This document shows positions 1-42,941 of a DNA stretch of 42,941 bases, piece after piece. Each line of letters opens with the position of its first letter. The first letter of the stretch is position 1. The notes under the pieces were generated by a model. That model saw nothing but the letters and a program-made list of their open reading frames with translations. It searched no databases and was not told where the DNA came from. A program made the position numbers and the translations under genes. This DNA is from a virus: IMG/VR virus record IMGVR_UViG_3300023313_000013, positions 1 to 42,941 of that record; one strand, given 5' to 3'.

Positions 1-165
1 TATAATAATATAAGCATTCGATATTGATAATCGTTATCATATAAGCATATCGTCATATAATAATATAAGCATTCGATATTGATAATCGTTATCATATAAG
101 CATATCGTCATATAATAATATAAGCATATCGTCATATAATAATATAAGCATATCGTCATATACTG
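1..165. repeat. Left AT-rich tandem repeat array (31-bp unit A and 24-bp unit B)
   Basis: Two building blocks alternate. Unit A is 31 bp, begins TAAGCATTCGATATTGATAA and starts at 11 and 66. Unit B is 24 bp, begins TAAGCATATCGTCATATAAT and starts at 42, 97, 121 and 145, the last being partial. The order is A-B-A-B-B-B. The A-B pair has an exact 55-bp period and continues from the right end of the window. No gene is present. Unit A carries the Fur-box-like palindrome described separately. Confidence 0.95.
20..93. promoter_or_regulatory. Two Fur-box-like palindromes (left end)
   Basis: GATATTGATAATCGTTATC occurs at 20-38 and 75-93, inside repeat unit A. It matches the 19-bp Fur box consensus GATAATGATAATCATTATC (established knowledge) at 17 of 19 positions. 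Its core is a perfect TGATAA-TCG-TTATCA inverted repeat. Identical copies lie near the right end. Binding by host Fur is inference; a phage or host DNA-binding protein with a similar site is the alternative. Confidence 0.5.
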
Positions 166-169
166 ATTT

Positions 170-195
170 GCCCCCCTGTAGGCACTGGCCTCGAC
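170..195. other. GC-rich island in the AT-rich terminal region; candidate packaging (cos/pac) signal
   Basis: A run of six C is followed by TGTAGGCACTGGCCTCGAC. It is the only GC-rich, non-repeated stretch in the first 400 bases, sitting between the 24-bp repeats and the 49-bp repeats, downstream of the terminase genes. It contains short inverted repeats (TGCC/GGCA and AGGC/GCCT). The packaging role is inferred from position and composition only. Confidence 0.25.
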
Positions 196-210
196 AAGCA
201 TAAAATCATA

Positions 211-308
211 TATACTCTTCTTTATAACTGAGCTACTTTTACTAGCATAATAAATATATTATACTCTTCTTTATAACTGAGCTACTTTTACTAGCATAAT
301 AAATATAT
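211..308. repeat. 49-bp direct repeat, two copies
   Basis: The 49-bp unit beginning TATACTCTTCTTTATAACTG occurs at 211-259 and again at 260-308. A degenerate third start follows. Each copy includes TTTACT, a 16-bp spacer and TATA[CG], a weak rightward promoter-like arrangement pointing at the 3' end of the terminase gene. No coding capacity is visible. Confidence 0.9.
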
Positions 309-343
309 TATAGACTTTCACTAGTATAATATATTTATTATGC
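294..343. terminator. AT-rich inverted repeat downstream of terminase; possible leftward transcript end
   Basis: Perfect 19-bp arms, GCATAATAAATATATTATA at 294-312 and its complement at 325-343, flank a 12-nt loop. It lies 58 bp past the large terminase stop codon on the minus strand. The stem is nearly all A/T and no clear U-tract follows, so it is not a classical intrinsic terminator. It could instead stabilise the 3' end or bind a protein. Confidence 0.35.
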
Positions 344-2892: not shown

Positions 2893-2921
2893 ATTATATC
2901 ACGGTGTTAGGATTTAGTAAA
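2893..2921 (-). promoter_or_regulatory. Leftward sigma70 promoter of the packaging operon
   Basis: On the minus strand TTTACT (2921-2916) and TATAAT (2898-2893) are separated by exactly 17 bp. Transcription would start about 12 nt before the RHH-like gene. It is divergent from the late promoter about 75 bp to the right. Confidence 0.85.
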
Positions 2922-2995: not shown

Positions 2996-3024
2996 TTTAC
3001 TTCTTCCTGCTAAGCGGTTATAAT
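2996..3024 (+). promoter_or_regulatory. Rightward sigma70 promoter of the virion (late) operon
   Basis: TTTACT (2996-3001), a 17-bp spacer, then TATAAT (3019-3024), 28 bp before the scaffold gene ATG. An A/T-rich stretch with repeated ATATATT upstream could act as an UP element or operator. Confidence 0.85.
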
Positions 3025-13354: not shown

Positions 13355-14673
13355 TGGCAATGTTCTTACATGATGGGTCAGTAAATGAAGTAGACTCACT
13401 AACGCTGCACGACTCCACTAAGGTAGGTAGCACAACAGCTATGCCTTTTGGAGTGTCTGCTTCTGCAATTATTGGTGCAGTAGTAGCTAGTGGTCAAGCT
13501 TTAGCGTTAGCTACTGGCTTGTCCATGACTACTAACATTGGTCAAGCTACGGCTAAAGAGACAGGTCACGTTGTTGCTACTGGCTTAGCCCTAGCTGCTA
13601 ATATTGGTCAAGTTATAGCTAAAGAGATAGGTCACGTTACTGTCGTTGGTTTAGCTGCTGCTATAAATGTAGGGCAAACAGTAGGTGGAGGCAAGGGTAG
13701 AGGCGCAAGTGTTAGCTCACCACTGGTTGCTACTATTGGTCAAGTTACAGCTAAAGAGACGGGGCACATTGTTGCCACTGGTTTGCCTTTAACAACTGCT
13801 ATTGGTCAAGCTACAGCTAAAGAGACAGGTCACATTGTTGTTGCTGGCTTGCCTTTAACAACTACTATTGGTCAAGCTACAGCTAAAGAGACAGGTCACA
13901 TTGTTGTCACTGGCTTAGTCCTGGCCGCTAACATTGGTCAAGCTACAGCTAAAGAGACAGGTCACATTGTTGTCACTGGCTTGCCTTTAACAACTACTAT
14001 TGGCCAAGCTGTAGCGATAGGCCTAGGAGGCTCATACGTTCACTTAGGTCCTGGGCTCTTAAGCGCCTCTTCTATAGGACAAGTAGTAGCAAAAGGTGCA
14101 GCTGCCGCGCTACCTAACGGTAACCTTAGTATAGCTACTATAGGACAGCCTCTCGCCCGTGAAACAGGCACGGCTAAGCTTGTAGGCATACAAAGTGCTG
14201 CACAAATTGGTACTGCTACCGCTAAAGAAACAGGTACTGCTAGACCTAGTAGTGCCCTTGCAGTAAGCACCATAGGCACAGGTTACAGTGTAGGTAGAGG
14301 CCGCGCTAAGCCTTTAGGCTCTATTAGCGCAGCTTATGTTGGTCAGCCTCTAGCGCGTGAAACAGGCACAGCTAAGCCTATCACGACTGGCCTGGTTAGT
14401 CACCTTACTAATCCTATCGGTAGAGGAGCCGCAACTGTTGCACCAAACGGGCTAGCTATACAGTCTGCAGCTACAACAGCTACAGCCACTGGACGAGGCC
14501 GAAGTAGAGTGGCAGGCTTAGTCGGACACACCTTTATACCTACTGCTGTGAAGTATAGCCCGACTGCAGCAAGCGTAACTTTAATAACACCTATGCGACA
14601 AACTAAATATACTGCTAGAGCTAAAACAATAGCATACGTCAGTAAACAGCGAGGCACTACATGGACACTTTAG
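13354..14673 (+). CDS. Repeat-built virion protein (22-residue IGQxTAKETGH repeat)
   Basis: 439 residues. After about 60 residues a 22-residue unit, typically LPLTTTIGQATAKETGHIVV plus two residues, repeats in register about eight times. It continues in degenerate form (IGQPLARETGTAK) to near residue 390. The alternation of hydrophobic strands and Gly/Lys turns suggests a beta-solenoid or extended fibre. The underlying 66-bp DNA repeats are nearly identical, implying recent expansion. It overlaps the next gene by 13 bp. Confidence 0.65.
   Translation: MAMFLHDGSVNEVDSLTLHDSTKVGSTTAMPFGVSASAIIGAVVASGQALALATGLSMTTNIGQATAKETGHVVATGLALAANIGQVIAKEIGHVTVVGLAAAINVGQTVGGGKGRGASVSSPLVATIGQVTAKETGHIVATGLPLTTAIGQATAKETGHIVVAGLPLTTTIGQATAKETGHIVVTGLVLAANIGQATAKETGHIVVTGLPLTTTIGQAVAIGLGGSYVHLGPGLLSASSIGQVVAKGAAAALPNGNLSIATIGQPLARETGTAKLVGIQSAAQIGTATAKETGTARPSSALAVSTIGTGYSVGRGRAKPLGSISAAYVGQPLARETGTAKPITTGLVSHLTNPIGRGAATVAPNGLAIQSAATTATATGRGRSRVAGLVGHTFIPTAVKYSPTAASVTLITPMRQTKYTARAKTIAYVSKQRGTTWTL
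13537..14064 (+). repeat. 66-bp in-frame tandem repeats (eight units)
   Basis: Units beginning ATTGGTCAAG (or close variants) start at 13537, 13603, 13669, 13735, 13801, 13867, 13933 and 13999, an exact 66-bp register coding for 22 residues. The four units from 13735 are the most alike. The copy at 13669 is the most diverged (GTAGGGCAAACAGTAGGTGG). Confidence 0.9.
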
Positions 14674-29973: not shown

Positions 29974-30002
29974 ATTATATCATAATAAACTTAATTTGTA
30001 AA
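29974..30002 (-). promoter_or_regulatory. Leftward sigma70 promoter before the Cas4-like gene
   Basis: On the minus strand TTTACA (30002-29997) and TATAAT (29979-29974), spacer exactly 17 bp. It feeds the nuclease-helicase-ligase block. Confidence 0.85.
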
Positions 30003-35432: not shown

Positions 35433-35461
35433 ATTATATATTATTTATTTATGATTGTAAA
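35433..35461 (-). promoter_or_regulatory. Leftward sigma70 promoter before the SSB-polymerase block
   Basis: On the minus strand TTTACA (35461-35456) and TATAAT (35438-35433), spacer 17 bp. It lies between the Dda-like helicase gene end and the acidic protein gene. Confidence 0.87.
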
Positions 35462-39686: not shown

Positions 39687-40187
39687 TTATGCTACTTCAA
39701 CGCCTTCGTCTTCAAGATACGCAAGCACTTGTTCACGAGTTTCGAAGCCTTCATCAGTTGCTACAATCATCTTACGAGCTTCTTCGATGTCAGCACGCAC
39801 ATCAGCAATTTCGCTCATATCTAAGTTACCAGCTTCAACTTGCGTCAAGATGTCCGCTGTTGCTGCTTTAGCAGTACGTTGCTGTTTAGTCCAATTAGAC
39901 ACACCAGCTTTGCTCATTGAAGCAAAGCCAGATGCAGCAGATGCTTTCTTACCAAATTCAACAGCTTCATCGCCTACCAAAGGCATCCAACGCTTAAAGT
40001 AGTAATCTAAGATAGCTACTGTTTCGCCAGCAGAATCTTTAATGAATGTGCTAACAGCTTCACCTGCAGCAGCACGACCTTTAGTCGAAGCTAATGCAAC
40101 GATGTCGTCCATTACTGTCTTAATTGATTTGTTTTCGTTTGCTTGTAAGAACTCTACTAGTGGTTCAAACGCTTTTTTAATTGCCAT
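39687..40187 (-). CDS. SNWTKQ-family early protein (paralogue 1)
   Basis: 166 residues from ATG at 40187, with GGAG upstream; a longer frame runs through the promoter and is unlikely. It shares a clear pattern with the protein at 41342-41803: KKAF...LVEFLQANENKS, DDIVALA, GETVAILDYYFKRWMPL, EFGKKASAASGFASM and KAGVSNWTKQ, then a charged helical tail. It has its own perfect sigma70 promoter and its own terminator, so it is a strongly and separately expressed monocistronic gene. No known family or function was recognised. Confidence 0.8.
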   Translation of the reverse strand: MAIKKAFEPLVEFLQANENKSIKTVMDDIVALASTKGRAAAGEAVSTFIKDSAGETVAILDYYFKRWMPLVGDEAVEFGKKASAASGFASMSKAGVSNWTKQQRTAKAATADILTQVEAGNLDMSEIADVRADIEEARKMIVATDEGFETREQVLAYLEDEGVEVA

Positions 40188-40248: not shown

Positions 40249-40277
40249 ATTATATATTGTTTGTTTAGACTTGTAAA
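40249..40277 (-). promoter_or_regulatory. Leftward sigma70 promoter of SNWTKQ paralogue 1
   Basis: On the minus strand TTTACA (40277-40272) and TATAAT (40254-40249), spacer 17 bp, A/T-rich upstream. About 60 nt of leader precede the ATG. Confidence 0.88.
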
Positions 40278-40369
40278 CATTTATTTTTAATTTTATTAAA
40301 ACTGTGCCAGTTCTAATCAGAACTAAACCATGGTGCACCTCCTGGCGAGACTTTTTGAGTTACTGTAGG

Positions 40370-41341: not shown

Positions 41342-41803
41342 TTAGATACTAGCTAGCACTTCATCAGCTGACGTGAAGCCTTGAGGCATGTTGTCAGTAA
41401 TTACAGCTTTAGCTTCTGCGATTAGTCGCTCTTTAGTTTCAGCGATTTCATCAGCTCCAATTTCACCAGTTTCTAACATAGTCAAAACAGTTTCGCCAAC
41501 TTTCTTCACAGCGTTATTTTGTTTTGTCCAGTTAGATACACCAACTTTACACATAGTATTGAATCCAGTTGAAGAACTAGCTTTCTTGCCATATTCAACA
41601 TCTGCTAGCAATTCCCATTGCTTGTGATAGTAGCAATAAATCGCTACAACTTCGCCCTTGTCGTTCGTCAAAAAAGTTTTCTGATTTGCTTTTTGGGCCG
41701 TCATTGCTTTGATGTCGTTAAGAATAGACGACACCTTTTTATTCTTGTTTGCTTCTAAGAATTCAACAAGTTCAACGTATGCTTTTTTAGTGTTTATAGT
41801 CAT
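41342..41803 (-). CDS. SNWTKQ-family early protein (paralogue 2)
   Basis: 153 residues from ATG at 41803, with AGGAG upstream; a 22-residue longer frame runs over an upstream palindrome and is unlikely. It is related to the protein at 39687-40187: KKAYVELVEFLEANKNKK, NDIKAM, KGEVVAIYCYYHKQWELL, EYGKKASSSTGFNTM, KVGVSNWTKQ, then a charged helical tail. A 17-bp palindrome and a separate promoter-like sequence lie just upstream. Two copies of an unknown protein among the earliest genes suggest an important host-interaction or DNA-binding role, not proven. Confidence 0.8.
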   Translation of the reverse strand: MTINTKKAYVELVEFLEANKNKKVSSILNDIKAMTAQKANQKTFLTNDKGEVVAIYCYYHKQWELLADVEYGKKASSSTGFNTMCKVGVSNWTKQNNAVKKVGETVLTMLETGEIGADEIAETKERLIAEAKAVITDNMPQGFTSADEVLASI

Positions 41804-41987: not shown

Positions 41988-42182
41988 TTATCGCTCTACG
42001 CTAATTTCCGACGGACTATGCCCGTTTAATATTTTTAATTCTTGCTCGATTTGATGCTTGATAACGTTTAAGCTTGCCTTGTTATCAAAAACATAAGTTG
42101 TACCTGTTAACTCGTTTTCTTCGCTATCTTTATAGTTAAAAAAGATAAACGTTACGTCTAGTGCCGATAATGTTGTTGACAT
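41988..42182 (-). CDS. First early protein after the promoter array, unknown function
   Basis: 64 residues: MSTTLSALDVTFIFFNYKDS, then a TGTTYVFDNKASLNVIKHQI helix and a polar tail. AAGGAG precedes ATG. It is the gene nearest the seven-promoter array, so it should be the most strongly expressed early gene. Small proteins at this position in other phages often inhibit or redirect host functions; no family was recognised here. Confidence 0.65.
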   Translation of the reverse strand: MSTTLSALDVTFIFFNYKDSEENELTGTTYVFDNKASLNVIKHQIEQELKILNGHSPSEISVER

Positions 42183-42201
42183 TTAATGCTCCTTTTGCAT
42201 A

Positions 42202-42812
42202 TTAGCTTATATATTTTATATAAATATATTCGCTTCAGTTATTATATATTAAAATAATCAGAAAGTAAACAGTTTATTTTAATATATTTATCAGCTTATA
42301 TATTTTATATAAATATATTCGCTTCAGTTATTATATATTAAAATAATCAGAAAGTAAACAGTTTATTTTAATATATTTATCAGCTTATATATTTTATATA
42401 AATATATTCGCTTCAGTTATTATATATTAAAATAATCAGAAAGTAAACAGTTTATTTTAATATATTTATCAGCTTATATATTTTATATAAATATATTCGC
42501 TTCAGTTATTATATATTAAAATAATCAGAAAGTAAACAGTTTATTTTAATATATTTATCAGCTTATATATTTTATATAAATATATTCGCTTCAGTTATTA
42601 TATATTAAAATAATCAGAAAGTAAACAGTTTATTTTAATATATTTATCAGCTTATATATTTTATATAAATATATTCGCTTCAGTTATTATATATTAAAAT
42701 AATCAGAAAGTAAACAGTTTATTTTAATATATTTATCAGCTTATATATTTTATATAAATATATTCGCTTCAGTTATTATATATTAAAATAATCAGAAAGT
42801 AAACAGTTTATT
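42202..42812 (-). promoter_or_regulatory. Seven tandem 89-bp repeats, each with a complete leftward sigma70 promoter
   Basis: Units start at 42202, 42291, 42380, 42469, 42558, 42647 and 42736 and are near identical. Each carries, on the minus strand, TTTACT, 17 bp, TATAAT (-10 at 42246-42241 and every 89 bp to 42780-42775). An A/T-rich upstream flank could act as an UP element. Each unit also has a 14-bp inverted repeat (ATATATTAAAATAA / TTATTTTAATATAT) around the -35 region. No ORF is present. Reading leftward they all feed the gene at 41988-42182. Confidence 0.92.
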
Positions 42813-42941
42813 TTATATAAGCATTCGATATTGATAATCGTTATCATATAAGCATATCGTCATATAATAATATAAGCATTCGATATTGATAATCGTTATC
42901 ATATAAGCATATCGTCATATAATAATATAAGCATTCGATAT
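42813..42941. repeat. Right AT-rich repeat array, continuous with the left end
   Basis: Repeat units A (42818, 42873, partial 42928) and B (42849, 42904) continue the array of positions 1-165. The final 79 bases (42863-42941) equal bases 1-79 exactly, and the match does not extend further left. This indicates a circular map or terminal redundancy. Confidence 0.95.
42827..42900. promoter_or_regulatory. Two Fur-box-like palindromes (right end)
   Basis: GATATTGATAATCGTTATC at 42827-42845 and 42882-42900, identical to the two left copies. They lie directly upstream (in transcription sense) of the seven-promoter array. When the ends are joined, three or four copies remain depending on how many repeat units the overlap removes. 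Confidence 0.5.

Follow-up and report, generated by a model that had tools for sequence, protein, structure and literature searches.

Identical tandem promoters facing the early operon of a Kafunavirus-related phage: a candidate natural promoter battery

The stretch of viral DNA analysed here (the window) is the 42,941-bp IMG/VR record IMGVR_UViG_3300023313_000013, in which structural genes run rightward and a block of early and replication genes runs leftward. Its right end carries an array of 89-bp repeats ahead of the early block, and this array adjoins a second one, of 55-bp repeats, that reappears at the left end of the record. The features concerned are the following.

1..127, no strand assigned: 127 bp exactly of the 55-bp array at the left contig end, with Fur-box-like sites at 20-38 and 75-93
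171..198, no strand assigned: GC-rich element CCCCCCTGTAGGCACTGGCC, also found after terL in relatives and followed by Fur-like sites in most lineages that have them
211..312, no strand assigned: 49-bp repeat containing AATAAATATATTAT, on the side of terL; it corresponds to the TTAATAAATTTATTAA repeats of relatives
2893..2921, minus: single promoter of the same class (motif search), upstream of terS-terL
2996..3024, plus: single promoter of the same class (motif search), upstream of the rightward late genes
29974..30002, minus: single promoter of the same class (motif search)
35433..35461, minus: single promoter of the same class (motif search)
40249..40277, minus: single promoter of the same class (motif search), upstream of the phrog_10459 paralogue
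41342..41803, minus: phrog_10459 protein (family match), an early-region marker in relatives; paralogue at 39687-40187
41988..42182, minus: first early ORF, 64 aa, from the ORF list, no family in the family search
42189..42194, minus: ribosome-binding site AAGGAG, 6 nt ahead of the ATG
42204..42815, minus: exact tandem array of 89-bp units (6.88 periods), 85% A+T
42241..42269, minus: promoter copy 7 (motif search), adjoining the first early gene
42330..42358, minus: promoter copy 6 (motif search)
42419..42447, minus: promoter copy 5 (motif search)
42508..42536, minus: promoter copy 4 (motif search)
42597..42625, minus: promoter copy 3 (motif search)
42686..42714, minus: promoter copy 2 (motif search)
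42689..42732, minus: 14-bp inverted repeat of copy 2, arms 42719-42732 and 42689-42702 (0 of 300 shuffles)
42775..42803, minus: promoter copy 1, TTTACT-N17-TATAAT (motif search), the most upstream, upstream arm of its inverted repeat truncated
42815..42941, no strand assigned: 127 bp exactly of the 55-bp array at the right contig end, with Fur-box-like GATATTGATAATCGTTATC at 42827-42845 and 42882-42900

An exact periodicity scan followed the 89-bp period over 612 bp with zero mismatches, and TRF called 7.0 copies at 42200-42819. The motif TTTACT-N17-TATAAT was found seven times on the minus strand (starts 42803, 42714, 42625, 42536, 42447, 42358 and 42269), each time facing the ORF at 41988-42182 and the leftward early operon. 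We thus recovered both the seven repeated promoters and their direction into the early genes, as claimed in a first-pass annotation of the sequence. Downstream of the seventh promoter come a leader, the AAGGAG and the ATG at 42182. Neither strand of the array contains an ATG, GTG or TTG, and a coding role was ruled out for want of start codons. An exact search of IMG/VR for the 89-bp unit of the window returned zero matches.

Every full unit also contains a perfect inverted repeat with 14-bp arms, ATATATTAAAATAA-N16-TTATTTTAATATAT, and none of 300 shuffles held an equally long one; only in the most upstream copy, at 42803, is the upstream arm truncated. The first-pass annotation had placed an inverted repeat over the -35 hexamer. 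Such a repeat exists, but it is longer than a -35 operator: its arms cover the A/T-rich upstream flank on one side, and the spacer and beginning of the -10 on the other. Since it is perfect in each full unit, transcripts from upstream promoters are predicted to fold strongly (z -4.5). A search of Rfam gave no match to a known RNA family.

The motif is not confined to the array. In the form GTTTACW-N17-TATAAT it was found at 12 places in the genome and at none in 100 dinucleotide shuffles. Seven of these copies are those of the array, and the other five (40277, 35461, 30002, 2921 and 2996) are single, intergenic and located before genes, as judged against the ORF list; for the copy at 40277, the ORF start at 40280 was reset to 40187 by homology. 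The copies at 2921 and 2996 point away from each other, one towards terS-terL and the other towards the rightward genes. Hexamers separated by 16-18 nucleotides, a position before a gene and an occurrence above chance are the marks of a sigma70-type promoter, and the sites show them; the array holds such predicted promoters on one strand in head-to-tail repeats. Because the same motif precedes terS-terL and the late genes, it is best read as a general host-polymerase promoter. The array sites, first described as early promoters, thus fit a promoter class of the phage itself, but this class is not early-specific. The phage would so use one host-polymerase promoter class generally, of which the array appears to be an amplified form. 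A megablast of positions 20000-42100, half of the genome, against phage records gave zero matches. Within the structural genes, one protein contains about seven copies of a 66-bp coding repeat (GQATAKETGHIVVTGL-like, 13532-14010).

By terL and phrog_10459, the phage, a marine podovirus, falls close to Edwardsiella KF-1 (Kafunavirus), Pseudoalteromonas PH1, Vibrio VPMS1 and Dickeya Amaethon, as well as to two genomes from Manatee Spring. Its terL is 47-53% identical to those of the named isolates and the Manatee Spring genomes, and 66-72% identical to those of the nearest IMG/VR contigs. A related terL and a phrog_10459 early gene follow each other in the same order as in Kafunavirus; judged by its terL identity, the window phage is a relative of this genus and not a member of it. 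The shared layout runs from terL through palindromic TTAATAAATTTATTAA-like repeats, a GC-rich element, variable arrays and an early promoter to phrog_10459. In many relatives the palindromic element directly follows terL, often in 2-4 tandem copies. The GC-rich element, often GGGCC...CTGGCCC, keeps its position after terL within an A/T-rich control region and is possibly a packaging or terminus site. An element near TATTCGCATGCGCACACGTATAATAAA, often with TGTACA or TTGTAC ahead of it, was seen in the control regions of L025, L028, L031, L034, L035, L037, L038 and L040 and is absent from the window, in which we did not find the TATTCGCATGCGCAC element of several relatives either.

To describe the promoter in this family, we used 78 post-terL regions from the window phage, which was counted as two regions, and its relatives. 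The strict promoter form occurs 62 times in sense and 11 times in antisense orientation, compared with 5.2 times in shuffles. The first-pass annotation had proposed a search of related phages for the same array, and tandem pairs or arrays of promoters at 88-94 bp were indeed found in eight relatives, with the following spacings.

L042: 90 bp
L071: 91 and 91 bp
L073: 90 bp
L089: 89 and 90 bp
L090: 89 bp
L157: 88 bp
L164: 91 bp
MW202744: 94 bp

On the terL tree, the tandem-promoter trait requires eight changes across the eight tips scored. In the closest cases, the units agree well at the promoter (window-L071 0.83, window-MW202744 0.83, L071-MW202744 0.93), whereas agreement downstream of it is only 0.20-0.53. 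This contrast suggests that the tandem arrays formed independently. Diverged copies are present within the arrays or pairs of L071, L089 and MW202744. Other spacings also occur in the family (L212 82, L088 79 and 58, L101 114, L136 63 bp), and in many relatives a single promoter of this kind, or none, was detected. Over all IMG/VR contigs, pairs of the exact TTTACT-N17-TATAAT, searched at 75-105 bp, were spread from 76 to 104 bp. We therefore dropped a universal 90-bp spacing; judging from these sequences, about 90 bp is a family tendency and no law. A conserved operator around the -35 was likewise rejected as a family feature, as only 8-10 bp arms were seen, in L071 and in one MW202744 promoter. 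In L197 (2864-3093), three TTTACT-N17-TATAAT motifs lie at 100-bp spacing, the first two units being identical; the stretch examined there had no terL or phrog_10459 match.

How many copies the array really has depends on how the contig was assembled. In metagenome assemblies from JGI, k is set as high as 127, and at each end of the contig (42815-42941 and 1-127) the perfect 55-bp repeat covers exactly 127 bp, beyond which, going inward, the period stops immediately. The ends fit a break of a k=127 de Bruijn graph of a circular map inside a tandem repeat; the genome map would be circular or terminally redundant, and the 55-bp array, by phase, at least 230 bp long. A graph of k=127 cannot count an exact repeat of 612 bp, so that the number seven must derive from coverage or read pairs. 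It is an assembly estimate, and the minimum at the same phase would be 256 bp with three promoters. We consider it rather unlikely that assembly produced most of the seven-fold array, with fewer true copies and a graph loop walked several times. The 127-bp mark at both ends and a repeat unresolvable at this k speak for such a product. Against it, a loop forms in the graph only from 216 bp of repeat upward; with the phase unchanged this amounts to three copies (256 bp) and hence a real array, and the diverged copies of L071, L089 and MW202744 cannot come from a loop. Since tandem early promoters about 90 bp apart recur in relatives, the array seems to be a biological theme and not solely an expansion made by the assembler. 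The seven copies listed in the first-pass annotation, which had named assembly expansion as a way to be wrong, thus become at least three copies of an array that is itself real.

That annotation had overlooked the array directly upstream of the promoters, and also that the two contig ends lie within it. Each 55-bp unit contains GATATTGATAATCGTTATC, which differs at two of 19 positions from the gammaproteobacterial Fur-box consensus GATAATGATAATCATTATC. At this threshold the window has 8 matches, that is, four sites read on both strands, compared with 0 in 100 shuffles; the window outside the control region has none. The post-terL regions contain 23 Fur-like sites in 71.6 kb, a count inflated by repeated boxes; the fairer measure is the number of regions, 9 of 78 compared with 0.1 expected. 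Sequence neighbouring these regions on the same contigs (452.7 kb) contained none. The 19-bp box thus occurs beyond chance in these control regions. The sites belong to nine lineages (the window, L005, L042, L104, L026/L027, L038, L082/L083, L088 and L112), require seven changes on the terL tree and come after the GC-rich element in every case except L112. L026/L027, a case additional to the nine regions, has three sites in a 29-bp array. In two lineages a box and a promoter-like element share one repeated unit: the 67-bp unit of L005 combines the box with TTTACTTTT, and the 66-bp units of L042 combine it with TGTACTTTT and are followed by the 90-bp promoter repeat. Fur-like sites were absent from the isolates whose hosts are known (PH1, VPMS1, KF-1 and Amaethon) and from three bacterial MAG contigs with a phrog_10459 relative. 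Fur-box-like clusters were also seen in L225 (9921-10504 of a 93.8-kb contig), L219, L220, L222, L226, L228 and L231; these viral contigs were found by pattern, and the stretch examined had no terL or phrog_10459 match of the group of the window.

We consider it probable that the 89-bp array is a natural battery of host-polymerase promoters that boosts transcription of the early and replication operon. The exactness of the repeat, the motif count of 12 against 0, the conservation of the motif and its sense bias, and the recurrence of tandem pairs and arrays in relatives were all observed and support this reading, as do the lack of start codons in the array and the ribosome-binding site and ORF that follow the last promoter. 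In such a battery, tandem sigma70-type promoters served by the host RNA polymerase would drive the early and replication operon, which runs leftward. The array may have arisen by tandem duplication of a single ancestral promoter belonging to the general class of the phage, and the copies would have been kept identical by recent expansion or by unequal recombination. A spacing of about 90 bp might be close to the tightest packing at which a promoter and its A/T-rich upstream element hold their own polymerase without overlap. If every copy initiates, output would climb with copy number, and the likely effect would be more total polymerase loading onto the first genes after DNA entry. In E. coli, engineered tandem core-tac promoters raised expression stepwise up to about five copies, by 4.4-fold (PMC3293061), whereas other synthetic tandem promoters can attenuate each other through polymerase collisions and reach at most the sum of their outputs (PMC11339919). 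Taken together, these two reports make a benefit of tandem copies plausible. The strong A/U hairpin predicted for each unit in upstream transcripts might hinder as well as help, and the battery is further weakened by a true copy number possibly below seven, by the varied spacings in IMG/VR and by the many relatives with one promoter or none detected.

The repeats could also serve replication or sequestration, or respond to iron. As a replication origin, the A/T-rich units would be iterons and an unwinding region, with the promoter motif incidental or used for priming transcription. An A+T content of 85%, the repeats and a minimum of the cumulative GC skew near the control region agree with this, and A/T-rich unwinding by the array is possible. 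The skew, however, tracks gene orientation here and is confounded; DnaA-box (TTATCCACA-like) sites show no cluster (6 in the genome compared with 9.1 expected, none in the control region); and it is the promoter motif, not the remainder of the unit, that is conserved and direction-specific. We therefore regard an origin as improbable. Improbable too, in our view, is a decoy, in which the array would titrate RNA polymerase, or a repressor of host or phage origin, instead of boosting the operon downstream. The perfect 14-bp inverted repeat around each -35 would suit this role, yet it is much shorter or absent in most arrays of the relatives, no repressor candidate was found, and a phage genome would add few promoters to the many of the host. 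Iron-linked control is a possible but tentative reading that would leave the promoter battery in place, since it can be a second layer. The 55-bp array would bind host Fur, and the promoter array would be the output of an iron-sensing switch or the neighbour of a decoy. Either iron-loaded Fur would nucleate on the 55-bp array and repress the adjoining promoters when iron is plentiful, or replicating phage DNA would titrate Fur and derepress host iron uptake. The excess of boxes over chance, in the window and in the relatives, and the further arrays of L026/L027, L005 and L042 argue for it. Conversely, the isolates of known host have no such site, a similar palindrome could belong to a phage protein, and the boxes of the window sit upstream of the promoter array and not on each promoter. 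With less than even confidence, we suggest that Fur-box arrays are part of the early control regions of lytic marine podoviruses, and that through Fur the iron status of the host would either gate the promoter battery or would itself be upset when replicating phage genomes titrate Fur.

Such a natural battery of perfectly repeated promoters would be the viral counterpart of a trick of strain engineering, and the recurrence of about 90 bp offers a test case for how tightly polymerases can load. The Fur-box-like arrays, if they bind Fur, would tie early phage expression to the iron status of the host. In the open-access literature, as far as it was accessible to strict term matching, which yields weak negatives, we found neither a repeated array of phage promoters nor Fur boxes in control regions of lytic phages; the only case related to the latter was a sit operon on lambda-like phages. 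Among known systems, Kafunavirus and its relatives (KF-1, PH1, VPMS1, Amaethon and MW202744) have the same layout from terL to phrog_10459, and their promoters are mostly TTTACT/TTTACA or TGTACA. They differ from the window in having no seven-fold array, MW202744 carrying two copies 94 bp apart, and the isolates lack Fur-like sites. The Fur-like boxes resemble gammaproteobacterial Fur boxes (GATAATGATAATCATTATC) in being 19-bp palindromes with 1-3 mismatches clustered beside promoters; unlike these, they are predicted sites, located in a phage control region and not ahead of host iron genes. In T7-like phages, the strong host-polymerase promoters A1, A2 and A3 stand in a row before the early genes, about 125 bp apart. 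The window shares with them a series of, here predicted, strong host-polymerase promoters ahead of the early genes, whereas the T7-like promoters are three and are not one repeat copied; the copies of the window are identical and spaced at 89 bp. The closest likeness in design is to the engineered MCPtacs (PMC3293061), which are identical head-to-tail promoters ahead of one operon whose output grows up to five copies. Those promoters are man-made, whereas the array of the window is natural and viral, with an A/T element upstream in each unit.
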